A stretch of DNA of 64,000 nucleotides from Verrucomicrobiia bacterium. Its GTDB lineage: Bacteria; Verrucomicrobiota; Verrucomicrobiia; Opitutales; Cerasicoccaceae. The DNA lies in assembly GCA_030432235.1 (NCBI GenBank), contig JAUIHT010000001.1:1488001-1552000 (forward strand), written 5' to 3'. Below are positions 11,805-64,000 of the stretch, one piece after another; within the stretch, counting starts at the first letter, position 1, and each line of letters opens with the position of its first letter. The notes below the pieces were generated by a model. The model saw nothing but the letters and a program-made list of their open reading frames with translations. It was not told the DNA's origin and ran no database searches. The position numbers and the translations under genes were made by a program.

Positions 11805-12650
11805 TTACCAGCCGCCGCTGGCGCCGCCTCCGCCGGAACTACCCCCGCCGAAGCCGCCAAAGCCGCCGCCTCCTCCTCCGCCGAAGCCGCCCCCGCCCCA
11901 GCCACCATGACCGCCACCTCCGCTACCCCATATCCAGGGGGTGTGGCGGCGTCCGTTGCGGTAGTAGCCTCGCCTGCGGTTATAGCTTCGAAAGAACGGG
12001 CCAAAGATTAGCATCAGAAAAATGATTAACAGGAAGAGGTCCTTAAGATTATCAATGAATTTGCCTTTGGGTTTCTTCTGTGGCGGCGGGGCCTTGTTCA
12101 ACTCCTGGCGGATGGTCGGGTCGCCCGCGATGAGGCCGTCGAGCTTGGTGACGACCTGCCGGATGCCGCCGGAGTAGTTCCCTGCCCGGAAGGCGGGTGC
12201 GGCCACGCGGTCGATGAGCGCCTTGGCCTGCGCATCGGTGATGGTTCCCTCCAGGCCGTAGCCGACCTCGATGCGCATTTTGCGGTCGTTCTTGGCCACG
12301 AGGAAGAGGACCCCCTGGTCGTGTTCGGCGCCCCCGATGCCCCACTTCTCAAAGAGGCGGTTGGCAAAGTCGTCAATCTGGCCGCCCTGCATGGAGTCGA
12401 TGGTCACGACCACGATGGCGGCGCTGTGCGCGTCCCAAGCCGCGCGGGCGGTATTTTCCATCGCTTGCTCGTCGCCGGGCTGGATGATGCCCGCGAAGTC
12501 GTGCACTGTCTTCGTCTTGTCCTGCGGGAGCGTCTCCCACAGTTCGGCTGCGTGCAGAGCGGGCCCGTTGGCCTGCAGACAGAGCGCTACGGCGAGAAGA
12601 CCGAGAGGGAAAAAGAGACGGCGGAGCTGCTCCGTAGGGAGACCAAGCAT
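11805..12650 (-). CDS. TPM-domain membrane protein with glycine-rich tail
   Basis: The 281-residue protein has an N-terminal signal-like hydrophobic segment (about residues 11-34), a TPM domain (VHDFAGIIQPGDEQAMENTAR, IVVVTIDSM, WGIGGAEHDQGVLFLVAKNDRKMRIEVGYGLEG), a second membrane helix at about 204-218 and a C-terminal tail made almost wholly of Gly, Ser, Trp and Phe. This matches the YgcG/TPM_phosphatase family, whose members are exported and then anchored by the second helix with the low-complexity tail last. Their biochemical role is uncertain in bacteria. It is the first gene of a run with the nucleotidyltransferase-like gene and lemA. The glycine tail may vary in length through slipped repeats. 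Confidence 0.85.
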   Translation of the reverse strand: MLGLPTEQLRRLFFPLGLLAVALCLQANGPALHAAELWETLPQDKTKTVHDFAGIIQPGDEQAMENTARAAWDAHSAAIVVVTIDSMQGGQIDDFANRLFEKWGIGGAEHDQGVLFLVAKNDRKMRIEVGYGLEGTITDAQAKALIDRVAAPAFRAGNYSGGIRQVVTKLDGLIAGDPTIRQELNKAPPPQKKPKGKFIDNLKDLFLLIIFLMLIFGPFFRSYNRRRGYYRNGRRHTPWIWGSGGGGHGGWGGGGFGGGGGGGFGGFGGGSSGGGGASGGW

Positions 12651-12769
12651 CCCCCTATCACGAAGGGGCTACTTGCCTCTTGCAAGGACAGAACGCGGCC
12701 AGGGCCATTCTTAAAACTTCAGTCTGGTATGTCTCTCTCTAATGGCGCGGTGCTCGGTCGTTCTTCTAA

Positions 12770-13207
12770 CCCTACCTGCGCCGCATCCGCATCCTCGAGG
12801 CCCGCCATGGCGACGTCCCGCTGGAAATCCTCCTCGCCGTCGGCCGCTTCGACCTCGCCCGCGCGGTCGAGGCCGGCTCGCACGGCCACGGGCACGACCA
12901 CCACCACGGCGAGGCCGGCGCACAGTTCCAGACCTGGAGCTACGAGACGGATAAACCCTTCGACGCGGAGGCTCTGCGCGAGATGGTCCGCCGCGAACTC
13001 CCGGCCAACCTTTACCGCTGCAAAGGCATCGTCCACGTCGCCGAGGCTCCCGAGGCCCGCCACAGCCTGCAGGCCGTCGGTCGCCGCACCGAGCTGACCG
13101 CCCTCGGCCCCTGGGGTAGGGCCCCGCGCCGCAGCCGCATCGTCGCCATCGGCTCCCGGCTCGACCAGCCCGCTCTCACCGCGCTCTTCGACCGCTGCCT
13201 GGCCTGA
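12770..13207 (+). pseudogene. 5'-truncated CobW/ZNG1-type metallochaperone remnant
   Basis: The reading frame ending at 13207 encodes about 145 residues typical of the C-terminal part of CobW-family GTP-dependent metal chaperones: LEARHGDVPLEILLAVGRFDLARA, then a histidine-rich loop (GHGHDHHHGE), then the CobW_C domain (FDAEALREMVRRELPANLYRCKGIVHVAE and an RRSRIVAIGSRLD end). An in-frame TAA at 12767 stops it just before the homologous part, and no P-loop GTPase domain is present anywhere upstream. Later in-frame starts exist (ATG at 12983), but these cut through the domain. It is best seen as a decayed gene remnant between the TPM gene and a PEP-CTERM gene. Base composition is very GC-rich, like the core genes. 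Confidence 0.7.
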
Positions 13208-13390
13208 GCTCTGCGGGGTGGCGTTTTGAGAGGCTTTGCGCCCAGCGTAACGCGGAAAAGCGTTTCTAAAACAGGATTCGCCTGCCGTATTTGGAGCTTA
13301 TCATAGGGTTAAGAATCTAAATATGGCGGGAAAAATGCTTGATAATGTAGCTAGAATTAACCCTAATGACTATTATTGCATTCACTACCT

Positions 13391-50386: not shown

Positions 50387-53300
50387 TTAGGCGCGGCGGC
50401 GGCGCAGGCTCCAGCCGACGGCGGCGAGGCCGAGAATGAGCAGGGCCCAGGTTTCGGGCTCCGGCACGGCCTGGAAGTTGGTCAGCGCGATTTCAAAATC
50501 GTCGTAGAAGATGTTGAACTGGCCGATCAGGTTCTCGTCGAAGTCGTAGACCATGAGCAGGCCGCCGTCGCTCAGGCCGGCGAAGACCCCGAGGAGCTGG
50601 CCACCGTCGAACGCCTCCAGAATGGGGAAGTAATCGGAAGAGGTCAGCAGGCTGGCCATTTCGGTGGGGCCGTCGACATAGAGCTGCGAACCGTTGATGT
50701 TGAAATCGCCGGTGGTGAGAATCTGGTCGAACTCAATGGAGTCAAAAATCTTGATGACTACGGTGGAATTGGAGTCCAGCGTAACGTTGCCGTCGAAGGT
50801 GAGTTGCCCGCCGTAGCCGGTAGAGTTGGCCGAGTACGCCTCGTACCCGTAGTTTTCCGGCTCAATCTCAATGCCGAACCCGGTGATGTCCCCGAGTATG
50901 GTTCCCTGGCCAATGAGCAGGCCTCCGTTAAAGGTCGCCCCTTGCTCGAAGGTAACGATGGAGTCGTTATAAATGCTGGTTTCGACGAAATACTCCTCCG
51001 TGTTATTCAGACTCCTGACAGATTCCTCCTGCTCGTATGTCCCGGTGAAGCGCGTGTCCGAATCGAGATAAACTTGACCGTAGTTGGCGAAGTCACCGCC
51101 AATAACCGCCTCAAATGTTTCTGCGGGTGTCACACTCTCTGAGGCCGGTGCGTAGGAATAAACGCTGAACTGACCGTAGTTGTTAATGGCACCGCCGTTG
51201 GTTGTGACGCTGATGCTGCTGCCCGGTGCCATGGACCAGTAACCATAATTCTGCACTAGGCCATCATCGAGGAGTATCTCTCCGCTGTTGTGACTGACAT
51301 AGGCCCAGTTTTCAAGCACACGTGTCTGCAGTATCTTCTGCTCGGCGCCGTATATGGAGAAGTAGCCGGAGCTGTTCATATAATCGCCTATAGACAGCGG
51401 ACCGTTAGCCAACGAGCCTGATATGGTACCCGACAGCCACTGGCCGCCCTGAATGACTACGCCGCCCAGGCCTGTCAGCATGGGGGCTGAAAAAGTCTCA
51501 GTAGCGTTTAAGGCTTCGGGGCCTAACAAATCCAGATATCCGATGGTGTGGATACCTTCGTTGGGAGTGAGGCCGAGGTCCAGAGTTGCGCCGGAGTTTA
51601 GCATCACGCCGCCTTCTGTTTCAAGGAGGCCGGTGACATTGACGTTGGCGTTGTAGATTTCGATGTAGCTGGTGCCGCCGCCGACAATGGTGGAATACTG
51701 CCCAATATCCCCCTCGAAGTCGTAGGTGCCGTCTGTCAAAGTCAGCTTGGGGTTGGAGCTCGTCGTATATGTACTTTCGGAACCGATGACGACAGGAGAG
51801 CCCAACTGAGTGGATGAGGTGTCCGTAAATACGCCTCCACCGGAGAGGATGAACTCGCCGGTGGTAATCTGCAGGGAGCCCTCATTTTCGAAAAAGACGT
51901 CGATGCCGCTAGTTCCGTCGGTGACGACGAAGATACTGCCTGTATTCAGGAACTTGCTGCCTTCTTCGTTATTGGTGTCGCCGGTATGGATATAGCTGTC
52001 GGTCGTATTAAAAGACCACAGGCCACTGTTTTCGATGACGCTGTTGCCCATTTCGAAGCTGCTGTATTGGAAGACGCTGCCGTTGTTTATGAGCTTATGG
52101 TTTTGGATGACCTTGCTGGAGGTGTCCTGGATATTGAGCGTGGCGGTGTTCTGGACGATAGTTTCCCCGGATGTGCTGGGAGTGGGGATGGCACTCACGA
52201 TACTGGAGCTTACGGCATAAGTGCTTTCAAGGACGACGGGCTCGGTGCCGAAGGTGCCACCGTTCCAGTCACCGCTATTATTGATGAAAAACTGTCCTTC
52301 CGGAACGATGAGCCCGCCCTGGAAATCCAGGTAATCGGTTTCCAGGGTGGTACCTGAGCTGCCATAAAGTTCTCCCCCTGAAACGACCTTTGTGGTTCCA
52401 TTGACGTCATAGGTGCCGTCTATATAGAGAGTGGCGCCTTCGTTTATCAGGACATCGCCGTTGCTGGTGCTCACCGAAGAATCGCTCGAGACGGTAAAAC
52501 TGCCGTTGCTAAAGTTGAGCACCGGGTTGGAGACGGAAACGGTCACATCTGGGCTGGGAGGATCGCCAGCATAGAGCGTGGAACCGCTAGTGAAGTAGCC
52601 GCCCTGAGCCAAAGCGAGGCTGCCGCTATAGACGTTGATGGTTCCGCCACCACTTTGGACATTCGTGTTCAGGAGAGACTCTCCCGAGCCGCCCGTTTTT
52701 TCAATAACGCCATAGTTGTACAAAGTGGGGGGAGTGCTGACACCGTAGTCGATGGAGGCGTCATCCTGGAAGTCGATGCTGCCGGCGCCGTTCACAAAAA
52801 TCTGCTGGCCGGAACCATACAGGTAGAGCGTTGAGGCGCCGGTAAACTTGACAGCGCCGTCAATCTGAGCGCCGCTACCGTAGAGTTCACGGTAGTTGCT
52901 GCCGGAAATATCCAGTGTCCCGGTACTCTGTACCGCCAGGCCCGAACCGGAGTCGATATGGCCGTTGGCCCATTCAACATTGCCTTTGATGCCGCCGGCA
53001 TCCGCGCCGTTGACGAAGGTGCCGAAAAGCGAGCCGTCGGTCAGGTCGAGCTTGCCTCCGGACCAGTCCAAGTCGCCATATACCGTAAAATTGCCGGTCG
53101 TGCTGACGGTGCCGTTCGACCATTGTAAACCTGTGGTAGAATTTCCATCGGTACCGAAAGTGTAATAGGCGCTTCCAGTGAGAACACCCCCGCTGATCAT
53201 GGAGAGGTCGGTCGCTTCCAGTGTACCGGAGCCTTCAATCTGGCCGTTGCTCATTTCGAGGGCCAAAATCTGTGTGGCTGGAGCCCCGATATCCGCGGTC

Positions 53301-53494
53301 ACTGCGGAGTCGAAAATCGCGGTGTCGGCGGTGCTCGGTACGTTGGTTGGGCTCCAGTTGTTCGCATTGTACCAGTCCGTATCAACGGATTCGGTGAAGG
53401 TGATGTCCGTGCCCACGCCACTGGCCCAAACGGGCAGCATAGCCAAGGTGGCAGACGCAACATGCAGGAGATTGAAACGCAGTGACCCAATCAT
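50387..53494 (-). CDS. Large PEP-CTERM beta-helix-like surface protein (1035 residues)
   Basis: The protein has a signal peptide (about residues 1-26), a start resembling autotransporter-associated passenger repeats (WYNANNWSPTNVPSTADTAIFDS), and then over 900 residues of short beta-repeats such as YTFGTDGNSTTGLQWSNGT, VYGDLDWSGGKLDLTDGS and INNSGDWNGGTFGTEP. It ends VPEPETWALLILGLAAVGWSLRRR, the exosortase sorting signal. Composition is Gly, Ser, Thr and Asn-rich with few charges. An adhesin or matrix role fits. The gene runs towards the phasin-like gene, from which it is 63 bases away, and is divergent from the tRNA. Confidence 0.85.
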   Translation of the reverse strand: MIGSLRFNLLHVASATLAMLPVWASGVGTDITFTESVDTDWYNANNWSPTNVPSTADTAIFDSAVTADIGAPATQILALEMSNGQIEGSGTLEATDLSMISGGVLTGSAYYTFGTDGNSTTGLQWSNGTVSTTGNFTVYGDLDWSGGKLDLTDGSLFGTFVNGADAGGIKGNVEWANGHIDSGSGLAVQSTGTLDISGSNYRELYGSGAQIDGAVKFTGASTLYLYGSGQQIFVNGAGSIDFQDDASIDYGVSTPPTLYNYGVIEKTGGSGESLLNTNVQSGGGTINVYSGSLALAQGGYFTSGSTLYAGDPPSPDVTVSVSNPVLNFSNGSFTVSSDSSVSTSNGDVLINEGATLYIDGTYDVNGTTKVVSGGELYGSSGTTLETDYLDFQGGLIVPEGQFFINNSGDWNGGTFGTEPVVLESTYAVSSSIVSAIPTPSTSGETIVQNTATLNIQDTSSKVIQNHKLINNGSVFQYSSFEMGNSVIENSGLWSFNTTDSYIHTGDTNNEEGSKFLNTGSIFVVTDGTSGIDVFFENEGSLQITTGEFILSGGGVFTDTSSTQLGSPVVIGSESTYTTSSNPKLTLTDGTYDFEGDIGQYSTIVGGGTSYIEIYNANVNVTGLLETEGGVMLNSGATLDLGLTPNEGIHTIGYLDLLGPEALNATETFSAPMLTGLGGVVIQGGQWLSGTISGSLANGPLSIGDYMNSSGYFSIYGAEQKILQTRVLENWAYVSHNSGEILLDDGLVQNYGYWSMAPGSSISVTTNGGAINNYGQFSVYSYAPASESVTPAETFEAVIGGDFANYGQVYLDSDTRFTGTYEQEESVRSLNNTEEYFVETSIYNDSIVTFEQGATFNGGLLIGQGTILGDITGFGIEIEPENYGYEAYSANSTGYGGQLTFDGNVTLDSNSTVVIKIFDSIEFDQILTTGDFNINGSQLYVDGPTEMASLLTSSDYFPILEAFDGGQLLGVFAGLSDGGLLMVYDFDENLIGQFNIFYDDFEIALTNFQAVPEPETWALLILGLAAVGWSLRRRRA

Positions 53495-53798: not shown

Positions 53799-54578
53799 TC
53801 ACCGCAATTTTTCCGCATGAAGGATAGTCAGGCCTTGTTCGCGCATATCCTCTTCGATGAGCGATCTGCCGTCGGGTACGTTCGTTATCAAATGGCTGAT
53901 ACGTTTGATCCCGCATACGCGACACATGGCCCGCTTGCCGAGTTTGCTCTGGTCGGCCAGGATAACGGCGCTGTCGCAGCGCTCTATCATTTTGCGCTCG
54001 GTTTCCACGATTGCCTCCGACGTATTATAGAGCCCGTCCACAGTAATACCGCCGACGGATAAGAAGGCCCAGTCCGCATGGTAAAAGTCCAGGCTATGCA
54101 GGGTGCCCGGGCCCGTCAGCATATTGGAGCCGCTCTGTATTTTGCCCCCCGTGAGATAGATTTCCCAATCGAAGTACTGCATGGCGGCATTATCGAGATA
54201 GGCCGAGACCCTCAGCGAATTGGTAATGATCCGCAGGGGGATGCGCGGCAGATGAAAACAAATATGATAGGTCGTCGTGCCCCCGTCGATAAATACGACA
54301 TTACCCGGGCTGAGCAGGCCCACGGCCTTTCTGGCAATGGCCGCTTTTGCTTCCGAGTGCTGCACCTCGCGCAGGTTAAACGGTACGTTGCCCTCGGTGC
54401 GAAGCAGGCGTACTCCGCCGCGTATGCGTTCAAGGGTTCCGTTGTCGGAGAGTTCATCGAAGTCCCGCCGGATCGTTGCCCGGCTCGCGCCCGTGACGCT
54501 CATGGCTCGCTCAAGATAGAGCATGCCTAGCTTGCCGGTCAGCTGGAGTATCTGCTCATGTCGCTCGATTTTATTCAT
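53799..54578 (-). CDS. DeoR-family transcriptional regulator
   Basis: The 259-residue protein has an N-terminal DeoR helix-turn-helix (LGMLYLERAMSVTGASRATIRRDFDELSDNGTLERIRGGVRLL) and a C-terminal sugar-phosphate sensing domain with the FIDGGTTTYHI motif and YDTSEA-like segment YNTSEAIVETERKMIERC. Members usually repress carbohydrate genes and are released by a phosphorylated sugar. It is divergent from the epimerase/dehydrogenase genes, with a 112-bp space that contains direct repeats, so it most likely controls them. ATG at 54578 is chosen over an in-frame start at 54614. Confidence 0.9.
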   Translation of the reverse strand: MNKIERHEQILQLTGKLGMLYLERAMSVTGASRATIRRDFDELSDNGTLERIRGGVRLLRTEGNVPFNLREVQHSEAKAAIARKAVGLLSPGNVVFIDGGTTTYHICFHLPRIPLRIITNSLRVSAYLDNAAMQYFDWEIYLTGGKIQSGSNMLTGPGTLHSLDFYHADWAFLSVGGITVDGLYNTSEAIVETERKMIERCDSAVILADQSKLGKRAMCRVCGIKRISHLITNVPDGRSLIEEDMREQGLTILHAEKLR

Positions 54579-54596
54579 CAGTAATTTAGATGAAAA

Positions 54597-54630
54597 TGAA
54601 TCATAAAGCGTCAAAAATTTGAATCAAAAA
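54597..54630. promoter_or_regulatory. Candidate operator: direct repeats before the epimerase operon
   Basis: TGAATCATAAA (54597-54607) and TGAATCAAAAA (54620-54630) agree at 10 of 11 bases and are 23 bases apart, about two turns of the helix. They lie between the DeoR gene and the gene run it probably controls. The assignment is by position and spacing only. Confidence 0.35.
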
Positions 54631-54690: not shown

Positions 54691-56361
54691 ATGAAGCTGA
54701 AGCTTGGCATCAAATCCGACCCGATTGAATACCGCTACTCGTTTCCCTGGCTTTTTCGCCTGATGGCCGAGGAGGGGATTACGTCGCTCCAACTTGGAAC
54801 CTTCTTCGAGTTGTACCAGTTGCCCGATGACTATTTTCTGCGCCTGAGAAAACAGGCTGAGGATTTCGGCATCGCGATCGATAGCTTGTTCACCGCACAT
54901 CGTGAGCTTGGGGGGTTCTTCCGGGAGGATCCGGAGTGGGTTGCTGTTGCCAACAAGAACTACCAGCGCCTTATACAAATCGGCGGCATTCTGGGGGCCA
55001 AATCGGTCGGGTCCAATCCCGGCGCATTGCCCCGCGATCTCATGGGCCTGAAAAAGCAAGGCATTCAATGCTACCTCAGGCATATGAAAGAGCTGATGCA
55101 TTATGCCAAAGAGCAGGGGGTTGGCTGGCTTACGATTGAGCCCATGTCATGTCTGGCCGAGCCGCCGACGCTGCCGGAAGAGATGGCTGCCATGGCAGAA
55201 GAACTTCATGCCTACCATCAGGAGCATCGTGAGTCCACTGCGCGTGTGGGCTATTGCACGGACATCGCTCACGGTTACCTGAGCGCCGATGAAAGTGAAC
55301 GCATCAGCCACGTCGAGCTGTTCAAGGCCTCCTTGCCGTGGCTCTATGAGGTGCATCTCAAGAATACGGACAATCGGTTCAATTCCACCTTTGGCTTCGA
55401 GCCGGACAATGTGGAAAGGGGCATTGTCGATGCTGCCATGTTCCGTGGTATCATTGAAGACAATGCCGACCTCATACCGGTCGACGAGCTGGCATGCTAC
55501 CTCGAGATCGGTGGTCCAAAGCTGGGGAGAGATTACACCGATGGTAAGCTGGAGGCGCAACTGCGCGACTCGATACAATACCTGAAGCAGCATTTCCTCC
55601 ACGCGGATCCCGCTACGGAAGTTGCCGATAGCTGCCTGGAGCTGCCGGTACAGGATGACGAGCGGGTGTATGTATCGCCGTCGATGATGTGTGTCGATCC
55701 GCTCAATTTCGAAAACGCCCTCAGACGGCTCGAAGTACTCGGTGTCGATATGCTGCACCTTGACATCATGGACGGGCACTTCGTGCCAAACGCGCCGATG
55801 GGACTGGGGGTTCTCGAAGCGCTGTGTGAGCGTACACATCTGCCGATTGACGTGCACCTCATGGTTGAAAACAACGACTTCTTTATCGGATTGTTGCAGA
55901 ACCTGAATATCCACCAGATTTCGGTCCATGAAGAAGCCTGCCCGCACCTTGACCGGACGCTCAGCCGCATTCGAGAAATGGGCGCCAAGGCTGGAGTTGC
56001 GCTGAATCCCTCCACGCCGCTTAGTGCGCTTGATTTCATTCTGGACCGCATCGACTACGTTCTGCTTATGACAGTTAACCCCGGCTTTGCAGGGCAGAAG
56101 ATGACGCCTGCCTCCATACGCAAGATCAAGGACTGCCGCGATTACCTGAACCGGCACGGCTATAGTCATATTCCGATTCAGGTGGATGGGAACGTCAGCT
56201 TTGGCAATATCCCTGAAATGGTTGCTGCGGGCGCCCAAAACCTCGTGGCGGGTACGAGCAGCATCTTCAATGCGGCGAGCTCCTGGAAGAGCAACCTGGA
56301 GCGCACCCGTGAAGCCATACGTGCGGGTCTCGCGCGTCGCGACAACCAAGTCCTGACTTAA
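54691..56361 (+). CDS. Fusion: sugar phosphate isomerase/epimerase + ribulose-phosphate 3-epimerase
   Basis: The 556-residue protein joins two TIM barrels. Residues 1-305 look like the xylose-isomerase-like (AP-endonuclease 2 / IolE) superfamily: GWLTIEPMSC, GYCTDIAHGYL, YEVHLKNTD and YLEIGGPKLGRDYTD. Residues 326-550 are a ribulose-phosphate 3-epimerase or allulose-6-phosphate epimerase: SPSMMCVDPLNFENAL, LHLDIMDGHFVPNAPMG with His356/Asp358, DVHLMVEN with His389, MTVNPGFAGQKM and VDGN with Asp499. Both halves have their metal or catalytic residues. The gene is first in a run with two dehydrogenases and divergent from a DeoR regulator, so it probably acts on a sugar and its phosphate in one pathway. 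Substrate unknown. Confidence 0.85.
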   Translation: MKLKLGIKSDPIEYRYSFPWLFRLMAEEGITSLQLGTFFELYQLPDDYFLRLRKQAEDFGIAIDSLFTAHRELGGFFREDPEWVAVANKNYQRLIQIGGILGAKSVGSNPGALPRDLMGLKKQGIQCYLRHMKELMHYAKEQGVGWLTIEPMSCLAEPPTLPEEMAAMAEELHAYHQEHRESTARVGYCTDIAHGYLSADESERISHVELFKASLPWLYEVHLKNTDNRFNSTFGFEPDNVERGIVDAAMFRGIIEDNADLIPVDELACYLEIGGPKLGRDYTDGKLEAQLRDSIQYLKQHFLHADPATEVADSCLELPVQDDERVYVSPSMMCVDPLNFENALRRLEVLGVDMLHLDIMDGHFVPNAPMGLGVLEALCERTHLPIDVHLMVENNDFFIGLLQNLNIHQISVHEEACPHLDRTLSRIREMGAKAGVALNPSTPLSALDFILDRIDYVLLMTVNPGFAGQKMTPASIRKIKDCRDYLNRHGYSHIPIQVDGNVSFGNIPEMVAAGAQNLVAGTSSIFNAASSWKSNLERTREAIRAGLARRDNQVLT

Positions 56362-56380: not shown

Positions 56381-57484
56381 ATGAAGAACATTGTCTATTA
56401 TCTGGATGGGCCGGGCGGTGCCTTTAAGGCTGTTGAAGAACCCATGCCTGAACCGGGCCCGGGGGAAATACGAATCCGCATGCGCCGTACTTCGGTTTGT
56501 CAATCCGATGTGGTCATTTACAAGGTGGGTTTACCGCGCATCAAGCAGTGGCCCGCGATAATCCTTCACGAGGTATGCGCAACGGTCGATGCCGTCGGAG
56601 AGGGTGTGACGAAGTACGCGCCAGGTGATCTGATTGGCATTGGTTGCGATATCCCATGCGGCGATCTCGATTGCATTTATTGCGGGCGTCAGGGAACCGG
56701 CGATTGGACATCCTGCCCGAACACCATCGCGACCGGGCACGAGTTTCCGGGATTCGCACGCACGCACGCGATACTTCCCGACTGGTTCGTCGAGCTTGGC
56801 CCGATTGCGAAGTTTGATGATGGCGTTAATCCGGACCATGCCTGTCAGCTTGAGCCGTTGGCGTGTTGTCTCGAAGGCATGACGCGCGTCAACAACTGCA
56901 TCGAGAACCGCATCGTCGTTTTGATTGGCGCAGGCTCGCAAAGTACCTATGCGTTGCAGTGCTCGTTGGCGATGGGGGCGCGCAAGGTGATTCTCGTTAA
57001 TCGCGGAGAAGACCGTCTGCAGCGCGTGTTGCGGGATTTCGGTAGCGAGCGCGTTGTCGGGATTCGCTGGGATGACAATGTCGTCAGCAATATTCTCGAA
57101 GCGTGCAGGCCGTTTAATGAGCCGCATTTTGTCATGATGAATGCACCCGCCGAAGCCGGCTACCGCCTTTCGACGGAGTTGCTCGGCTATGGCACGGTGC
57201 TGGATGCCCACGCCGGAGTAAAGGGAGCCGGGGGCAAACCTCAAATCCAGCACGAGGTCGACCTCAATAATGATATCCACTACAAGCTTCAGTGTTATCA
57301 GGCGACGCACGGCTCAAGCATGCACGGAATCGGCCTTGCCCATCGGATGATTAATGAAGGCATGTTGCCGCTCATCGATAAGATGACCAACGACACCGAG
57401 CGCTTTCACCATAGCGAGCTTTTGCCGGCCATCCAGCGGGCGGCGGACAAGGATTCGCTCAAAGTTATTATTAATTGGAGCTAG
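56381..57484 (+). CDS. Zinc-dependent medium-chain dehydrogenase
   Basis: The 367-residue MDR-family protein has the catalytic-zinc pattern (Cys40 in TSVCQSD, His63-Glu64 in ILHEVC) and a structural-zinc-like lobe with Cys93, Cys98, Cys101 and Cys112 whose spacing is not the classical one. The cofactor loop reads LIGAGSQSTYALQ, followed by MGARKVILVNR. Such enzymes oxidise polyols or sugar alcohols with NAD. It begins 19 bases after the epimerase fusion and ends just before a second dehydrogenase, forming one operon. The substrate is unknown. The odd lobe and the EPLACC segment separate it from ordinary sorbitol dehydrogenases. Confidence 0.8.
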   Translation: MKNIVYYLDGPGGAFKAVEEPMPEPGPGEIRIRMRRTSVCQSDVVIYKVGLPRIKQWPAIILHEVCATVDAVGEGVTKYAPGDLIGIGCDIPCGDLDCIYCGRQGTGDWTSCPNTIATGHEFPGFARTHAILPDWFVELGPIAKFDDGVNPDHACQLEPLACCLEGMTRVNNCIENRIVVLIGAGSQSTYALQCSLAMGARKVILVNRGEDRLQRVLRDFGSERVVGIRWDDNVVSNILEACRPFNEPHFVMMNAPAEAGYRLSTELLGYGTVLDAHAGVKGAGGKPQIQHEVDLNNDIHYKLQCYQATHGSSMHGIGLAHRMINEGMLPLIDKMTNDTERFHHSELLPAIQRAADKDSLKVIINWS

Positions 57485-57486
57485 TC

Positions 57487-58542
57487 ATGCGCGCACTCGT
57501 ACTTGAAGAGGATAAGAAGCTCGTTTACCGGGAGGACTATCCCATGCCGGTGGCGCCGGATGAACGCCCGGCTGCTTTGGTGAAAGTTGCCGCATGCGGT
57601 ATATGCGGGTCGGACATCCCGCGCGGCTTTGGCGGTAAAGCCTATTTTTATCCTCTGGTCATGGGACATGAGTTTAGCGGTGTTGTCGAAGAACCGGTTG
57701 TGGGTGGACGTTTCAAGAAGGGAGATCGCGTTGCTGTCTTTCCTCTTATCCCGAAGAATGTCGATACGGATCCGGCCAACCAAACGGGTAACTATGCCCA
57801 GTCCCGCGAGTACGATTACTATGGCTCACGGCGTGACGGCGCCTTTGCGGATTACCTGCGCATTCCGGAGTGGAATCTGTTTCCAGTGCCCGAGCATGTT
57901 GACTTGCTCCACGCTTCCATGACAGAGCCCGCAGCCGTGGCTCTGCACGCGGTGCGCAAATTACGCGTGCCGGCTGGAAGCGATGCCGTGGTCTTCGGGG
58001 CGGGACCCATCGGTAATATGACGGCGCAATGGCTGCGCATTCACGGTTGTTCACGTATCTTCATTGTGGATATCGAGCCACGCAAACTCGCGCTCGCCGA
58101 ACAAATGGGCTTTGTACCGGTGGACGCGAGGGAGGTGGACCCCAAAGCCGCCATACTGGATGCCACCCAGGGGGCAGGCGTTCAATGCAGCATCGAAGCC
58201 TGCGGGCTGCCGGTTACGTTCCTGCAAGCTGTACAGGTGGCGGGCATGTTTGGTGAGGTGGTCTTCATGGGGAACATTGCGGGTGAGTTCAAAATCGGCG
58301 AAAAGGATTTTTCGGAAATCCTGCGCAAGGAGCTAACCATCCACGGAACGTGGAACAGCAAGATAACCCCGGTTGGCACGGATGACTGGTCCACCGTGCT
58401 CAAGTATTTGGATCGCGAGCTCGACGTTGCCCCACTGATTACGGACAAGCTTCCGCTCGCGGAGGGGCCTGCCATCTTTGAGGATTTGGTCAATCGAACC
58501 AACTATCACAACAAGGTGATCTTCGACTTGCTTGGCGGTTAA
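57487..58542 (+). CDS. Medium-chain dehydrogenase, galactitol-1-phosphate dehydrogenase-like
   Basis: The 351-residue protein resembles GatD-type dehydrogenases: CGICGSDIPRGF (catalytic Cys), MGHEFSG (His61, Glu62), EYDYYGSRRDGAFADY, TEPAAVALHAVRK, VFGAGPIGNMTAQWL and GIAGEFKIGEKDFSEILRKEL-like C-terminus (NIAGEFKIG). The four cysteines that normally hold structural zinc are missing; that loop reads PLIPKNVDTDPANQTGNYAQS. ATG at 57487 has GGAG six bases upstream and is two bases after the previous stop, so the two dehydrogenase genes are tightly coupled. It probably oxidises a polyol or polyol phosphate. Confidence 0.85.
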   Translation: MRALVLEEDKKLVYREDYPMPVAPDERPAALVKVAACGICGSDIPRGFGGKAYFYPLVMGHEFSGVVEEPVVGGRFKKGDRVAVFPLIPKNVDTDPANQTGNYAQSREYDYYGSRRDGAFADYLRIPEWNLFPVPEHVDLLHASMTEPAAVALHAVRKLRVPAGSDAVVFGAGPIGNMTAQWLRIHGCSRIFIVDIEPRKLALAEQMGFVPVDAREVDPKAAILDATQGAGVQCSIEACGLPVTFLQAVQVAGMFGEVVFMGNIAGEFKIGEKDFSEILRKELTIHGTWNSKITPVGTDDWSTVLKYLDRELDVAPLITDKLPLAEGPAIFEDLVNRTNYHNKVIFDLLGG

Positions 58543-58550
58543 AGGCACGC

Positions 58551-59381
58551 CTATTCACTGACTTTCGGATGTGACCAGGCAGCATGGCGGACTTGGCGCG
58601 GAGATGCGCCTGCCGTTTCACGTACGACTCGTGAAAAATGATAAGGTGTCTGGAATCCGCAGCGATAGGCGATTTCGGAGATGCCCAGTCCGGTATTGCG
58701 CAGCAGGTTAATCGCTTCGCGGGTGCGGATTTGCCAGAGGTACCGGATAGGCGTCGTGCTTAGGTGCTCTTTGAAAAGACGAATCAGGTGCGGGCCACTG
58801 ATTGCGGCGGCGACGGCCAGGGCGTCCAGGTCCAGCGGTTCCTGGTAATGATTATGGATGAGGTCGAGGGCGCGCTCCACGGCGGTTGGCAGGGGAGGGT
58901 TTGGTGTCAGCGAAGCACCCGCGTCGGCCAGAAAGCAGGCCAGGATGGACTCGGCCAAGCTCTCTTGCAGCGATTGCTCGGCCGGCTGTAGTGAGCCCGC
59001 GCAGGTCATGGCCATCCGATGCAATTCCTCCAGGCGCTTAGATACCGCAACGCACTGGGGCAGGCTGTCGATGATGTTGAAGGCTTCGGGACTTAACTGC
59101 GCGTTGCACGCCTGGCTCCAGCCGTGGCAGGTGTCAGGCGCAAAGACGAAGTACTCGACCCTGCCGGGTAGCAGAAGCGTTGCTTGTCCTTCCTCCAGTT
59201 CAAAGGACTTATCTCCCGCGTCGATGTGACAGGAACCGCGAAAAACATAGACTAGTTGCAGGTTCGGCTGGATGCGAGGCCCGCACGTGCCTCCATCGCC
59301 ATAGACAACATCATTGACGATATAGCCGGTGTTTTTCCCGATAATGTTCATTTCAGACAAATATATGCCGATCGGGGGCAT
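58551..59381 (-). CDS. AraC-family transcriptional regulator
   Basis: The 276-residue protein has an N-terminal cupin-like ligand domain (LVYVFRGSCHIDAGDKSFELEEGQATLLLPG) and a C-terminal pair of helix-turn-helix units (LDALAVAAAISGPHLIRLFKEHL and LGISEIAYRCGFQTPYHFSRVV). It should activate transcription when it binds a small molecule, usually a sugar. It converges on the dehydrogenase operon, ending nine bases away, and is divergent from the PhyH-family gene, whose promoter it may share. A second in-frame ATG at 59351 is possible. Confidence 0.9.
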   Translation of the reverse strand: MPPIGIYLSEMNIIGKNTGYIVNDVVYGDGGTCGPRIQPNLQLVYVFRGSCHIDAGDKSFELEEGQATLLLPGRVEYFVFAPDTCHGWSQACNAQLSPEAFNIIDSLPQCVAVSKRLEELHRMAMTCAGSLQPAEQSLQESLAESILACFLADAGASLTPNPPLPTAVERALDLIHNHYQEPLDLDALAVAAAISGPHLIRLFKEHLSTTPIRYLWQIRTREAINLLRNTGLGISEIAYRCGFQTPYHFSRVVRETAGASPRQVRHAAWSHPKVSE

Positions 59382-59433
59382 GGTAAAGATTGAAAAGGCA
59401 TGCTACTATGGGGCATCAACAACACTTAACATC

Positions 59434-60432
59434 ATGAGCATCCAATCCCCGACTTCCATCGCCACCGACCAACCCGGCTACTTCACTCCCGAACAACTTG
59501 GGGAGGATTCGATCCGGTTTTTCAAGGAGAAGGGTTACCTGGTTCTTGTGGGTGGCTTCAGCGCACAGGAAGTCGCTCAGCTCAACCGCGAGATGGTCGC
59601 CATCTGTCGGGGAGAGCGTGGCGAAATGCACATGCGAAATGATGGTAACAGGCAGCACGGCGAAATCGATATCGATGCCTTGGCCGAGCTGTCGGATGAG
59701 GAGGTCATCAGCAAGTTTCTCTGTATCCATCAGGTCCACAAATTCTCCGATGTTATGTTTCGCGCACTGGCTCAGCCGAACCTGGTCAGGGTTCTGACCG
59801 GGGTGGTCAGCCCGAATGTCAAATGCATGCAGTCGATGCTCTTCATCAAGGCCAGCGGCAAGCCCGGACAGGCCTGGCATCAGGACGAGGACTACATCCC
59901 CACGCGTGATCGCTCGCTCATCGGCGCGTGGATAGCGCTGGATGATGCGACGGTGGAGAACGGCTGCCTCTGGGTCATTCCGGGCTCGCACAGTCACGGT
60001 GTGCTTTGGCCGCAATATCCGCACAACAACCCCGACTATGACTGCGCCACCATGGCCTACGACTTTCCCTACGCCGACTCCGACGCGGTACCCGTGGAGG
60101 TGCCCGCTGGCAGCATCGTGTTTTTCAACGGCTATCTCTTGCACAAGTCACTGCCGAACCGCACCACAGGCCGGTTTCGACGTGCGCTGGTCAATCATTA
60201 CATGAGTGCGGAGTCGCTTCTGCCCTGGCGTCATCGTGAGGACATCAGTAATGCCAAGAATGACTACCGCGACATCGTTCTGGTCGCGGGCGAAGATCCT
60301 TACGCCTGGAAAGGCACAGAGGATATTTCAAGGGCTTACATTCGCCCTGCCGGGCAAGGCGGTTGTGGTGATGGACGCACCGAGCTGGAATCTTTCCGCA
60401 AAAAGTCCGTCTTTGAGCGAGAGAAGGCTTGA
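59434..60432 (+). CDS. Phytanoyl-CoA dioxygenase (PhyH) family protein
   Basis: The 332-residue protein has the double-stranded beta-helix of Fe(II)/2-oxoglutarate oxygenases: metal ligands His149 and Asp151 in AWHQDEDYI, His237 in YLLHKSLPNR, and Arg247 or Arg249 in GRFRRALVNHY for 2-oxoglutarate. WIALDDATVENGCLWVIPGSH is the usual core. PhyH relatives in sugar-use loci hydroxylate small molecules, and the substrate is not known. ATG at 59434 is chosen since an in-frame reading from further upstream overlaps the AraC gene. The gene faces away from the AraC regulator, 52 bases from its start. Confidence 0.87.
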   Translation: MSIQSPTSIATDQPGYFTPEQLGEDSIRFFKEKGYLVLVGGFSAQEVAQLNREMVAICRGERGEMHMRNDGNRQHGEIDIDALAELSDEEVISKFLCIHQVHKFSDVMFRALAQPNLVRVLTGVVSPNVKCMQSMLFIKASGKPGQAWHQDEDYIPTRDRSLIGAWIALDDATVENGCLWVIPGSHSHGVLWPQYPHNNPDYDCATMAYDFPYADSDAVPVEVPAGSIVFFNGYLLHKSLPNRTTGRFRRALVNHYMSAESLLPWRHREDISNAKNDYRDIVLVAGEDPYAWKGTEDISRAYIRPAGQGGCGDGRTELESFRKKSVFEREKA

Positions 60433-60632: not shown

Positions 60633-62981
60633 ATGCCGACTGCCCCCCTCTCTCCCTTCGCTCATTCGAGCTGGATTTGGCCGCTCAACCACCATTGGAA
60701 CATACAGAACGGCTACGCGCTTTTCCGTAAAACCTTCACTCTGGGAAATGTACCAGCGAGTGCGCCGTTGTTCATTACCGCGGATCAGGCGTACCGCCTG
60801 TGGGTCAACGGAAGTTTTGTTGGGCGTGGTCCGGCACGTGGTTTTCAGCGGAGCTGGCCTTATGACGAAATCGACATCTCGCCGTATTTGCGTACCGGAG
60901 AGAACTTGATTGCGGTACGCGCCTACAATCCCGGCTTTAGCAACTTCCAGTATGTCAGCCAGGGGTTTGCCGGGCTGTTGGTCAGTGGGTGCTGGGGTAG
61001 CGTGGAGGTTCACAGTGACGAGACTTGGCAGTGCCTGCGCCAGCAGGGCATCAAGGGCGACGCTTATCTGTCCTCGATGCAATTGTTTCCGCAGGAGCAT
61101 ATCGACCTGCGCGAAGAGCCCGTCGGCTGGCAGAGCTTGGCGGAGGTAGAGGGCGATTGGCGCGCGCCGATAACGCGTCCCTGGAACTCCGCTCCGTGGT
61201 ATGCGCTGGAGTCACGCGATATACCGCTCTTGCGCGAAGAGCTGTGGCCTGTCGCACCGTTGATTGGAATGGGGGAGGGCGCTTGCGCCGAAGGTTACCG
61301 CGAAACCAACAACATCGTGGCCACCCGTGTGCTAGAAGACCGCTCGCACCAATCGGCGGGTGGGGAAGCCACCACCGTCGCGGTTGAACCTACGGGGACA
61401 GGGCGCTTTCGCAGCTTCCTGTTCGATTCCGGCAAGACCGTGGTGGGCAGCCTCGTCGTGACCGTCAAGGGAGCGCAGGGCGGCGAGATTATCGATACGC
61501 ATTTGACCGAGACCATCGACGAGGATTCGTTGACTCTCGATCAAAAGATGGATGCCCACTGCCGCATGGCTTTTGGCGACCGGCTGGTGTGTCGTCCAGG
61601 CGAGCAGACGCATTCTTTCTTCCATCATTACGGTTTCCGGTTTCTGGAGGTCACGGTGCGCGATGCAGAAGCTCAACTCGAGCTGGAGCTCAAGCTGAAC
61701 TGGGTGGGCTATCCAATGGAGCGCAAAGGCAGTTTTTACAGCTCGGACAAAGAGCTGGAGGCTATCTGGGAAACCTGTGCCTGGACGCAGCAATGCTGCA
61801 TGCTCGACGCTTACGTCGATACGCCCTGGCGCGAGCAGGCTCAGTGGTGGGGCGATGCCCGTGTGCAGGCTTGGAACACTTTTCATCTGAATGGCGATAC
61901 GCGTCTGTTTCGGCGTGGCATCAAGCAAATCGGCAGCCAGCAGACCGAGGACGGGGTCACTTACGGCCACGCGCCGACGATGGCCCATAATTGCATTTTG
62001 CCGGACTTCACCCTCATCTGGTTTATCACCTTGTGGGACTATTATTGGCAGACCGGAGAGACCGAGGCACTGCTCGCGCATCATGAGCAAGTGCAGCGTG
62101 CCTTGAATTACTTTCGTGACTGGACGGACCCGCAATCCGGCCTCCTCACCTACGACGACCGCTACTGGCTGTTTCTGGACTGGACGGGGATATTCAAGGA
62201 CGGCACGCCGACCCTCTATAATCTGTGGTTGCTCATAGCGCTGGATAAGCTGGTGGAGCTCTACCGTGTAGCCGAGCGGCCCGCCGATGCCGAGCCTCTG
62301 GAAAAATGGGCTGCTGAGCTGCGTGGTGCACTGGGCGAATTGGTGGGGAAGGACGGCTTCATCCGCGACGGTATCGATCGCCAAGGCAAACGCGTGGAAA
62401 GCACCTGCCTGCATAATCAGGTGCTCGCGTTGTACGCAGGTTTAGACGGCGTTTCCGCAGAGGTTGCAGAGGAAAAGCTCTTGTTGCCGTTTATTCGTCG
62501 TGAATGGGTGCCCGAGGTGCATCCCTCGGCATATTGGATCACCTACGTTTTTTCCTATCTGATAAAAGCAGGCTACGAAGAGGAAGTCCTGGCTTATATC
62601 AAGGAGCGCTGGCAGCCCATGGTGGGTCATGGAACCACGTGGGAAAACTTCGAACCGGTTATTGCCACGGAAAGTTTTTCACATGCCTGGTCGGCACATC
62701 CGCTATTTCATTGTATGGCTACCGTGGGAGGAGTTCGGCAGGCCGCGCCCACCTGGAAGCGTATTCTCTTCCGTCCGGTTTTCCATGGAGATACCGGTGG
62801 CGCGGTGATTCCTTCGCCGCATGGCCTTATCGAAAGTTCGTGGGAGCGCCTTGCGAACGAAAAAATCCATGTGACTCTCCGTCTTCCCGAGGGAGTTGAG
62901 GCGGATGTATCGCTGTCCGGTTTGGCCCCGGAGGTTGTTTCGGGCTCGCGGGAGTGGGACATCGCGCTGATGACGGCCTAG
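60633..62981 (+). CDS. GH78-like alpha-L-rhamnosidase
   Basis: The 782-residue protein fits glycoside hydrolase family 78-type organisation: an N-terminal beta-sandwich (ALFRKTFTL, FITADQAYRLWVNGSFVGRGPARG, YDEIDISPYLRTGENLIAV), a second sandwich (RSFLFDSGKTVVGSLVVTVKG), an (alpha/alpha)6 barrel with ETCAWTQQCCMLDAYVDTPWREQAQWWGDARVQ holding likely catalytic acidic residues, and a C-terminal sandwich (ESFSHAWSAHPLFHCMATV). Such enzymes remove terminal alpha-L-rhamnose from glycans or glycosides. No signal peptide is visible, so it may act in the cytoplasm. It follows the PhyH gene after 200 bases and precedes a secreted carbohydrate-binding-like protein. Confidence 0.85.
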   Translation: MPTAPLSPFAHSSWIWPLNHHWNIQNGYALFRKTFTLGNVPASAPLFITADQAYRLWVNGSFVGRGPARGFQRSWPYDEIDISPYLRTGENLIAVRAYNPGFSNFQYVSQGFAGLLVSGCWGSVEVHSDETWQCLRQQGIKGDAYLSSMQLFPQEHIDLREEPVGWQSLAEVEGDWRAPITRPWNSAPWYALESRDIPLLREELWPVAPLIGMGEGACAEGYRETNNIVATRVLEDRSHQSAGGEATTVAVEPTGTGRFRSFLFDSGKTVVGSLVVTVKGAQGGEIIDTHLTETIDEDSLTLDQKMDAHCRMAFGDRLVCRPGEQTHSFFHHYGFRFLEVTVRDAEAQLELELKLNWVGYPMERKGSFYSSDKELEAIWETCAWTQQCCMLDAYVDTPWREQAQWWGDARVQAWNTFHLNGDTRLFRRGIKQIGSQQTEDGVTYGHAPTMAHNCILPDFTLIWFITLWDYYWQTGETEALLAHHEQVQRALNYFRDWTDPQSGLLTYDDRYWLFLDWTGIFKDGTPTLYNLWLLIALDKLVELYRVAERPADAEPLEKWAAELRGALGELVGKDGFIRDGIDRQGKRVESTCLHNQVLALYAGLDGVSAEVAEEKLLLPFIRREWVPEVHPSAYWITYVFSYLIKAGYEEEVLAYIKERWQPMVGHGTTWENFEPVIATESFSHAWSAHPLFHCMATVGGVRQAAPTWKRILFRPVFHGDTGGAVIPSPHGLIESSWERLANEKIHVTLRLPEGVEADVSLSGLAPEVVSGSREWDIALMTA

Positions 62982-63060
62982 GCCGCTTAGGGGAGAGTGC
63001 CTAGTTGAGATTTTTTTGCTTGAAATTATCTTAATCACACGTTTAATCAATGGCATATCT

Positions 63061-63078
63061 CCTGAGTAAATGCTCAGG
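63061..63078. other. Small palindrome upstream of the secreted protein gene
   Basis: CCTGAG-TAAATG-CTCAGG forms a 6-bp stem with a 6-nt loop, 30 bases before the next start codon and 80 bases after the rhamnosidase stop. It may be an operator or weak terminator; there is no T-run. Confidence 0.3.
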
Positions 63079-63107
63079 CTTTAATCCAACCCCTTCCAGA
63101 ATACTCC

Positions 63108-64000
63108 ATGAATAGATCCCTGTTTATCCCACGTATTTACACGTCAATATCTCTGCTTTCCCTTGCTTTATTGACGACGCTGACCGCTAAAGCTCAGCCA
63201 AGCCTGATGCCTGCCAGCAGCGAGTCCCTGCAGGTGAGAGACGCTACCGCCGAATTAGTCGAGGTGGATGGTGAGTCGGCACTCAAGATGGAATTCGGCC
63301 CCAGTGAAAAGTACTCGAATGTGTTCATTCAGGCACCCGATGGCGTATGGGATTTATCCCAGTACGCCGGTATCGAAGCGGTGGTGACCAACCAAAGCGA
63401 CGAGATGCTGAAGTTCGGAATGCGCGTGGATAATAACCGGCCGAAAAACGAGCGGGCCTGGAATCAGACCGGTGCGAGAATCCAGCCGGGCGAAACGGCC
63501 ACGGTGCGCGTGACCTTCGGCATGGATTACGGCAAGCCTGGCTTTCAACTGGACCCTGCCTCGGTGGAGTCGGTGTTGTTTTTTATGGGTAAGAGCCCCA
63601 AGTCCAGCGCTGTTCTGCTGAAGAGCCTGAAGCCTTGGGGGACTGCCAGCGAGCAGGTCAATATCGATGATCTGAAGGGGACGGCGCCGCAAAGCTCCAT
63701 CCTTTTTGACTTCAAAGGGGCGAACCCGCTCCAGGGGGTCAAGGGTCTCGATTCGACCTATGAAGTGGAGGAGTATGAAGGTAAGCCGGCATTGAAGTTT
63801 ACTCTCGGCCATAACAACCCGTACCCGAATGTTTCCTTTACTCCGAGTGAGCCGCTGGATCTGTCCGCCTACGAAAGCATCGAGTTCGACATCGTCAACC
63901 TGAACGACGAATCCGTCGGTATCGGTGCGCGTGTGGACAACCCCAATGCCACCGGTCGTTCCAACTCCAATAGTGGCTCGGTAACGCTGGACCCGGGCCA
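63108..64000 (+). CDS. Secreted protein with tandem carbohydrate-binding-like modules, 3' end outside window
   Basis: The visible 297 codons begin with a signal peptide (hydrophobic IYTSISLLSLALLTTLTA, likely cut after KAQ). Two similar beta-sandwich units follow: the first contains ALKMEFGPSEKYSNVFI, WDLSQYAGIEAVVTN and FGMRVDN, the second ALKFTLGHNNPYPNVSF, LDLSAYESIEFDIVN and IGARVDN. Such galactose-binding-like N-terminal modules in Verrucomicrobia and marine bacteria often precede a glycoside hydrolase, for example of the agarase or porphyranase kind; the catalytic domain would lie beyond the end. It follows the rhamnosidase on the same strand, so export and glycan binding fit the locus. 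Confidence 0.75.
   Translation, partial: MNRSLFIPRIYTSISLLSLALLTTLTAKAQPSLMPASSESLQVRDATAELVEVDGESALKMEFGPSEKYSNVFIQAPDGVWDLSQYAGIEAVVTNQSDEMLKFGMRVDNNRPKNERAWNQTGARIQPGETATVRVTFGMDYGKPGFQLDPASVESVLFFMGKSPKSSAVLLKSLKPWGTASEQVNIDDLKGTAPQSSILFDFKGANPLQGVKGLDSTYEVEEYEGKPALKFTLGHNNPYPNVSFTPSEPLDLSAYESIEFDIVNLNDESVGIGARVDNPNATGRSNSNSGSVTLDPG

Follow-up and report, generated by a model that had tools for sequence, protein, structure and literature searches.

We have found a gene that joins two epimerase-type TIM barrels in one reading frame and lies next to genes for zinc-type dehydrogenases; fusions of this kind occur in some members of Verrucomicrobiota, Planctomycetota and Armatimonadota. The window, the whole stretch of 64,000 nucleotides from an Opitutales bacterium that was analysed, carries the fusion gene at 54691–56361 on the + strand. 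In relatives from several remote groups of bacteria both halves have stayed intact, with one or more dehydrogenases alongside, so that an uncharacterised pathway for an unusual sugar is probable; we infer that it is one of phosphoketose/polyol-phosphate remodelling. That the fusion protein serves there as a bifunctional epimerase, in the polyol-phosphate-linked remodelling of an unusual ketose or polyol, is a proposal to which we give an even chance. The combination is new and its parts are known: two epimerase families have been fused and are accompanied by dehydrogenases, and this fusion was not described in the titles and abstract openings of the literature searched.

The open reading frame runs from ATG to TAA over 556 codons (556 aa) and is free of internal stops, the stretch between the halves included. 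The original prediction of two complete TIM barrels of different families in one frame is borne out by this open frame, by a PF00834 match in the C-terminal half and by the AlphaFold2 fold of the N-terminal half. Active-site residues had likewise been predicted for both halves, and 12 of the 13 positions tested proved invariant in 37 aligned fusions: E150, D191, H194, H222 and E272 in the N-terminal half and S331, H356, D358, H389, M391, M460 and D499 in the C-terminal half are identical in 37/37, and the contact methionine M360 of the C-terminal half is kept in 35/37. The roles of these residues in the two active sites are ones that we presume. With the catalytic positions kept, the reading that one half is dead in the homologues was ruled out for the 37 aligned fusions. 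The alignment (A1) covers fusions from three phyla and omits L034, L035, L037, L039 and L040 (genome already represented), the truncated L067 and the broken L042. In the last of these, from a small MAG (G530), the N-terminal half is broken by a frameshift/two stops in the aligned frame (8001–9675 of L042), and the frame of the C-terminal half is open.

Between the barrels lies a variable low-complexity linker (about aa 306–324, nucleotides 55606–55662, + strand), as judged from the alignment and the model. The linker region of the 37 fusions spans 29–93 residues (median 37) between two flanking invariant serines and is often rich in Pro, Ala and Ser, with short repeats in L098. Residues 306–320 have a pLDDT <50 in the full-length AlphaFold2 model, whose overall pTM is only 0.57. 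The simplest reading is that of two independently folded enzymes on a flexible tether.

By AlphaFold2 fold and alignment, the N-terminal half (aa 1–305, 54691–55605, + strand) is a xylose-isomerase-like TIM barrel, an EryC/3qxb-like epimerase domain. This assignment was invisible to the first searches, since there was no significant Pfam match and phmmer against PDB gave only weak ones. At E ≤ 10 the first 307 residues had a single chance-level Pfam match (LPD22, E 0.29, below cut-off) and the N-terminal half had none to PF01261; a single-sequence phmmer search found 3qxb (E 0.065) and one unrelated chain (E 0.17). Two divergent unfused barrels (L116 and L119) match PF01261 with 54.8 and 55.6 bits (cut-off 31.1). 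The AlphaFold2 model of the N-terminal half, computed from 37 aligned sequences, shows a complete TIM barrel (mean pLDDT 92.3). Its best structural match in VIA-align is 3qxb (Z 31.5, 283 residues, 2.3 Å), followed by EryC (4k3z; Z 29.7, 286 residues, 2.6 Å); Foldseek places EryC first and 3qxb second. Lower matches are Art22 (Z 28.0), UlaE (25.2) and tagatose/allulose 3-epimerases (about 24–25). The model and its structural matches thus show that naming this half a sugar isomerase/epimerase barrel, as had been done, was right at the level of the fold.

We presume a metal quartet of E150, D191, H222 and E272, plus H194; the quartet aligns with the E/D/H/E of EryC and 3qxb and is invariant also across the 37 rows of a second alignment (A2). 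The A2 profile, which includes two divergent unfused barrels, found EryC at E 6e-39. A profile of fusions only, run against PDB, found 3qxb at 4e-5, and EryC (4k3z) was absent at E ≤ 1e-3. At the sequence level, the link of the N-terminal half to EryC is weaker than the A2 profile suggests. EryC is described as a D-erythrulose-1-phosphate 3-epimerase (PMC10733421) and as a tetrulose-4-phosphate racemase (PMC5992420). From this activity, and with 3qxb and EryC as the nearest structures, we infer with moderate confidence that the N-terminal half is a metal-dependent ketose 3-epimerase, more likely one acting on a ketose-1-phosphate. Brucella EryC shares with it the xylose-isomerase-like barrel and the aligning E/D/H/E positions; it differs in being only about 18% identical, in being missed by the fusion-only profile and in being a stand-alone protein of an erythritol operon (PMC5992420). 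Unlike the fusion, 3qxb from Rhodospirillum rubrum is a single barrel of about 297 residues; its entry name is ‘putative’ xylose isomerase.

The C-terminal half (about aa 325–545, 55663–56325, + strand) is a PF00834 barrel (aa 328–523, 208.6 bits versus a cut-off of 21.1 in hmmscan) with the Ser/His/Asp/Met/His/Met/Asp set that we take to be catalytic in this superfamily. It had been named a ribulose-phosphate 3-epimerase; the superfamily holds, but by tree and motifs this half groups with E. coli AlsE and not with Rpe. Among the NCBIfam equivalogs it falls narrowly below the rpe model TIGR01163 (210.4 bits, cut-off 212.6) and below the AlsE model NF007266 (170.1 bits, cut-off 271). In an IQ-TREE phylogeny of 53 rows (31 C-type sequences, AlsE and Rpe of E. 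coli MG1655 and 20 of 21 paralogues), a split with support 97/95.8 sets the C-terminal half and AlsE against E. coli Rpe and 19 rpe-like copies. The AlsE side has 33 rows (31 C-type, AlsE itself and the paralogue L014) and the Rpe side 20. Paralogues were chosen from the samples by top score and not at random, and one of them (L028, containing stops) was omitted. The branch of AlsE is very long (3.22) and its exact placement unsure; we therefore limit the claim to ‘AlsE-like rather than Rpe’, with no orthology implied.

The motifs agree with the tree. Common to AlsE and the C-terminal half in the window are MC.D, GFAGQ and an additional residue ahead of the last Phe (GTSS-F loop); the counterparts in E. 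coli Rpe are ILS.D, GFGGQ and GSA-IF. C-type rows deviating from the AlsE motifs include L050 (GYAGQ) and L119 (LACAD), among others. A separate rpe-like gene is present in the window genome. Being closer to AlsE, the C-terminal half is predicted from its sequence to be an AlsE-type 3-epimerase rather than Rpe. E. coli AlsE (3ct7), which is matched by the fusion profile, is also a PF00834-type barrel, and its motifs, once aligned, have H/D/M, H and D at the same positions. AlsE is a stand-alone D-allulose-6-phosphate 3-epimerase whose allose operon also encodes a kinase and an ABC transporter, whereas the C-terminal half is fused to a second barrel and linked to zinc-type dehydrogenases.

Two such dehydrogenase genes follow the fusion gene. 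ADH1 (GroES-like, 367 aa; 56381–57484, + strand; identified by profile scans) starts 19 bp past the fusion stop, and the GatD-like ADH2 (57475–58542, + strand; TTG start) overlaps its end. The best NCBIfam model for ADH2 in the window is galactitol-1-phosphate 5-dehydrogenase (GatD), with 193.5 bits versus a cut-off of 550, so that ADH2 is no equivalog of this enzyme. The same model was best for 8/8 ADH2-type proteins scanned (193–271 bits), and scyllo-inosose 3-dehydrogenase was a close second for some of them (in L122, 244.6 versus 247.6 bits). ADH2 may act on a phosphorylated substrate, but a model for an unphosphorylated one scores almost equally in some loci. To describe gene neighbourhoods we used 48 loci, 36 of them fused, with ORFs and labels assigned by BLAST against chosen references; the counts miss genes unlike these references. 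A GatD-like ADH2-type gene is present in 36/36 fused loci (broken L042 included) and a second ADH in 29/36. In five of the seven loci lacking the second ADH, the contig ends within the cluster (L039, L043, L097, L098 and L109); in L049 and L108 it is truly absent from the stretch covered.

In a 387-genome sample of the window's phylum, eight genomes have the full-length fusion (the window's included) and two (G045 and G158) have the halves apart. A set of 177 nearer relatives, which overlaps this sample, contains seven genomes with the full fusion, and G045 and G158 match with the N-terminal half alone at E ≤ 1e-60. The phylum of a Pirellulales MAG (294 genomes) gave 10 matches at E ≤ 1e-60, four of them full length; the other six are a 618-codon frame with both halves (G808), a truncated gene (G643), three N-terminal halves alone and one C-terminal half. 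The C-terminal half of G647 lies at a contig end and G643 is cut by one, so that either may be part of a fusion or not. The phylum of a Chthonomonadia MAG (201 genomes) gave 22 matches at E ≤ 1e-55, of which 15 are full fusions; the remaining seven are one pair of neighbouring halves (G1250), one N-half match (G1251) and five C-type genes only. Among 251 genomes from the phylum of an Anaerolineae MAG we found no fusion, one N-terminal half and one related C gene.

Searches of plasmid records with the full-length query produced 573 matches, none covering 80% of it; the 15 listed all cover the C-terminal half or run into it, and the N-terminal half alone had no match among plasmid records. On a Priestia filamentosa plasmid (L176, 6992–8664), a gene annotated as rpe, with about 47% identity to the C-terminal half, stands directly before rbsK, an arrangement resembling the ribokinase-like/C pairing of L117. 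A match in Rhizobium etli (H2) was set aside: by our own reading of the unannotated ORFs there, it resembles a common rpe gene with a RuBisCO-like gene as its neighbour.

Fused and unfused labels change three times in the tree of N-terminal halves, and a single fusion clade is not rejected (p-AU 0.063). The fused C-terminal halves make a clade of their own (support 100/98, 25 rows), which includes the unfused L113 and also L102, which may be fused or unfused; the C-type partners of G045 and G158 and of L114, L116, L117 and L119 fall outside it. The unfused counterparts show a range of arrangements. The N gene and then the C gene are immediate neighbours in G1250 (L113), and matches to N, ADH2, ADH1 and C stand in a row on one strand in G1251 (L114). 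In G045 and G158 (L051 and L050), RhaA, N, ADH2 and ADH1 share a strand, and the C-type gene and a DeoR gene are divergent. G958 (L119) combines a divergent PF01261 barrel with ADH2, ADH1 and C, and the set of G1264 (L116) is similar, though its ADHs are separated by an additional ORF. Other sets are smaller: ADH1, a ribokinase-like gene and C in G1243 (L117); N and both ADHs with no C alongside in G525 (L118); and an unfused N-half without a close C-half in L099, L100 and L101, the latter two also without ADHs. In complete unfused sets, the ADHs lie between or beside the epimerase genes; the fusion thus joins the two ends of the set.

Divergently from the fusion gene, the window encodes a DeoR/GlpR-family regulator (53799–54614, − strand; profile scans). 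This protein had been predicted to control the pathway, and may do so. A DeoR-like gene is found in 20/48 loci (in one of them about 6 kb away), and an RpiR-like regulator takes its place in 7/48 loci, mostly of Armatimonadota; two of the RpiR-like proteins were confirmed by Pfam as HTH_6 plus SIS. Regulators of families with a DeoR sensor domain or a SIS domain, borne by some of the cluster regulators, often sense phosphosugars. Outside the conserved core of the window locus, profile scans identified an AraC-family regulator (58551–59381, − strand) and an alpha-L-rhamnosidase-type glycosidase (60633–62981, + strand). From the glycosidase on, a glycan-degradation region continues from the cluster (window 60633–64000 and L052 8418–14157), with an agarase-CBM/weak GH42 protein, a GH1 enzyme and a sulfatase; its target is perhaps a sulfated rhamnose-containing polysaccharide. 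A PhyH-family (phytanoyl-CoA dioxygenase-like) oxygenase is encoded beside the sugar genes (window 59329–60432). A 1035-aa protein encoded at 50387–53494 (− strand) has an apparent signal sequence and, at its end, what we take to be a PEP-CTERM sorting tail.

A gene of the L-rhamnose isomerase (RhaA) family is present in 10/48 clusters. Nine intact linked copies, together with two unlinked ones (one each in G158 and G529), form a clade with support 1.00 (FastTree) apart from 18 other RhaA copies; 20 unlinked loci were taken into this tree and the split L060 copy was left out. In L060 (G391), the rhamnose isomerase gene linked to the fusion (11970–13222 of the locus) falls into two separate frames. 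Another RhaA copy exists in 8/10 genomes with a linked one; G528 and G530 have the linked copy alone. With a clade of their own and an additional copy in most genomes, the linked RhaA proteins likely have a different substrate or separate regulation. Two RhaA proteins were scanned: that of L032 exceeds both equivalog cut-offs, and that of L050 exceeds one and narrowly misses the second. We dropped the notion that rhamnulose-1-phosphate aldolase is replaced by the fusion cluster, as presence and absence of RhaA and Aldolase_II failed to discriminate: RhaA (PF06134) is in 34/40 genomes and Aldolase_II (PF00596, aldolase subtypes pooled) in 38/40, including five fusion-less sisters. Kinase genes are found in 4/48 clusters: L032 and L042 each have a rhamnulokinase-like gene (FGGY), and L059 and L117 each a ribokinase-like one (PfkB); weaker or distant kinase-like matches occur in L044 and L101. 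No sugar kinase was seen among 11 window-side proteins scanned (eight plus three further downstream), nor with three kinase queries over the window from 44001 onward and L052.

In the pathway that we propose, the N-terminal half would be a divalent-metal 3-epimerase for a ketose, probably a ketose-1-phosphate, of the EryC/UlaE/tagatose-3-epimerase kind. The C-terminal half would be a 3-epimerase of the AlsE type; its substrate would be a 2-ketose with the phosphate at the far end, and its reaction the conversion of D-allulose-6-phosphate to D-fructose-6-phosphate or a close analogue of this step. Both families epimerise C3 of a ketose and one or more dehydrogenases accompany them, which makes it probable that the two epimerisations are separated by one or two redox steps; two 3-epimerases in series on the same carbon would cancel each other, and the dehydrogenases offer the missing steps. 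They would oxidise or reduce a polyol or polyol phosphate linking the two ketoses. In the most economical version, the carbonyl would move between the N- and the C-step by way of a polyol phosphate, one carbon being reduced and a different one oxidised. In several Opitutales the starting ketose or polyol would probably be made by the RhaA paralogue, and the end product would be a central ketose-6-phosphate or -5-phosphate entering central sugar-phosphate metabolism. The original prediction had coupled the halves, with the substrate of the second derived from the product of the first. The fusions, and the similar unfused genes in the same clusters, argue for coupling; a direct hand-over from product to substrate is doubtful.

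The main rival is an oxidise–epimerise–reduce editing of an unphosphorylated sugar, in the manner of E. coli ycjQRS, with the C-terminal half acting after a separate kinase step; we consider it unlikely, though a serious contender. YcjQ, YcjR and YcjS are two sugar dehydrogenases and one epimerase/isomerase, and the set works on glucosides, not on sugar phosphates (PMC11543891). The fusion cluster has a like make-up, and ycjQRS is a precedent for a dehydrogenase pair with a PF01261-type epimerase, as in the fused loci with two ADHs. YcjR (6wn6) is indeed among the structural matches of the N-terminal half, at rank 45 among the 50 listed, and ADH2 scores well also against scyllo-inosose 3-dehydrogenase. 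However, YcjR ranks far below EryC, 3qxb and the tagatose-3-epimerase structures and also below UlaE, and a polyol-phosphate dehydrogenase is the best model, though below cut-off, of all eight ADH2-type proteins scanned. Unlike the fusion cluster, ycjQRS has no AlsE-like partner named in the available part of PMC11543891.

A plain rare-sugar route is rather improbable as a whole. The RhaA paralogue would convert an aldose (e.g. D-allose) to D-allulose, the N-terminal half would interconvert D-allulose and D-fructose in their free form, phosphorylation would fall to a kinase of the ribokinase or FGGY type, the C-terminal half would yield fructose-6-phosphate and the dehydrogenases would serve the matching alditols. 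The linked RhaA genes, the intact ones in one clade, fit this route, as do the AlsE-like C-terminal half, the ribokinase-like genes of L059 and L117 and the rpe-annotated gene beside rbsK on the Priestia plasmid. Yet in structure the N-terminal half lies closer to EryC, a phospho-tetrulose enzyme, than to the free-ketose epimerases, kinases are as rare in the clusters as noted above and 38/48 loci have no RhaA nearby.

There is a small chance that the C-terminal half is simply a second copy of ribulose-5-phosphate 3-epimerase whose fusion serves dosage or co-regulation, with no particular tie to a pathway. Its best scores are those of rpe models and structures, but the tree and the motifs set it apart from Rpe. 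A further rpe-like match exists in 8/8 fusion genomes of the 387-genome sample and in 6/7 fusion-carrying genomes of another set (the broken one included; the exception is G526), and unfused related C genes adjoin TIM-barrel or ADH genes. The joining of two genes by an assembly or sequencing artefact has practically no probability: a search for the same architecture in other genomes found the one-frame fusion in many separate assemblies, which excludes chance or sequencing error, and the same frame in 37 aligned proteins with differing linker lengths refutes the artefact reading.

Polyol-phosphate-linked remodelling by a bifunctional epimerase, the reading that we prefer, could take a specific form, to which we attach a slim probability: a redox-neutral flip of an L- into a D-sugar, from L-ketose-1-phosphate to D-ketose-6-phosphate. 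The RhaA paralogue and a RhaB-like kinase would make the L-ketose-1-phosphate. The N-terminal half would epimerise it at C3 (L-fructose-1-phosphate to L-allulose-1-phosphate), and one dehydrogenase would reduce C2 to give allitol phosphate, with its symmetric carbon skeleton. The GatD-like dehydrogenase would then oxidise C5 to give D-allulose-6-phosphate, which the AlsE-like C-terminal half would convert to D-fructose-6-phosphate. The fused barrels would thus be mirror-image 3-epimerases flanking a symmetric pivot. Worked out by hand, the stereochemistry is consistent for L-fructose and for L-xylulose (giving D-xylulose-5-phosphate); L-rhamnulose gives 1-deoxy-D-fructose-6-phosphate. Such a flip would explain why an AlsE-type C-terminal half occurs together with a GatD-type dehydrogenase. 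If true, it would be a natural route from L-sugars to D-sugars, useful for rare-sugar biocatalysis.

Verrucomicrobiota, Planctomycetota and Armatimonadota are known for glycan degradation. The presence of the fusion and its dehydrogenase set in these three phyla argues strongly, at the genomic level, that some of their members have a carbohydrate pathway not yet characterised, and it provides a testable hypothesis for genes otherwise named only rpe, sugar isomerase or alcohol dehydrogenase.
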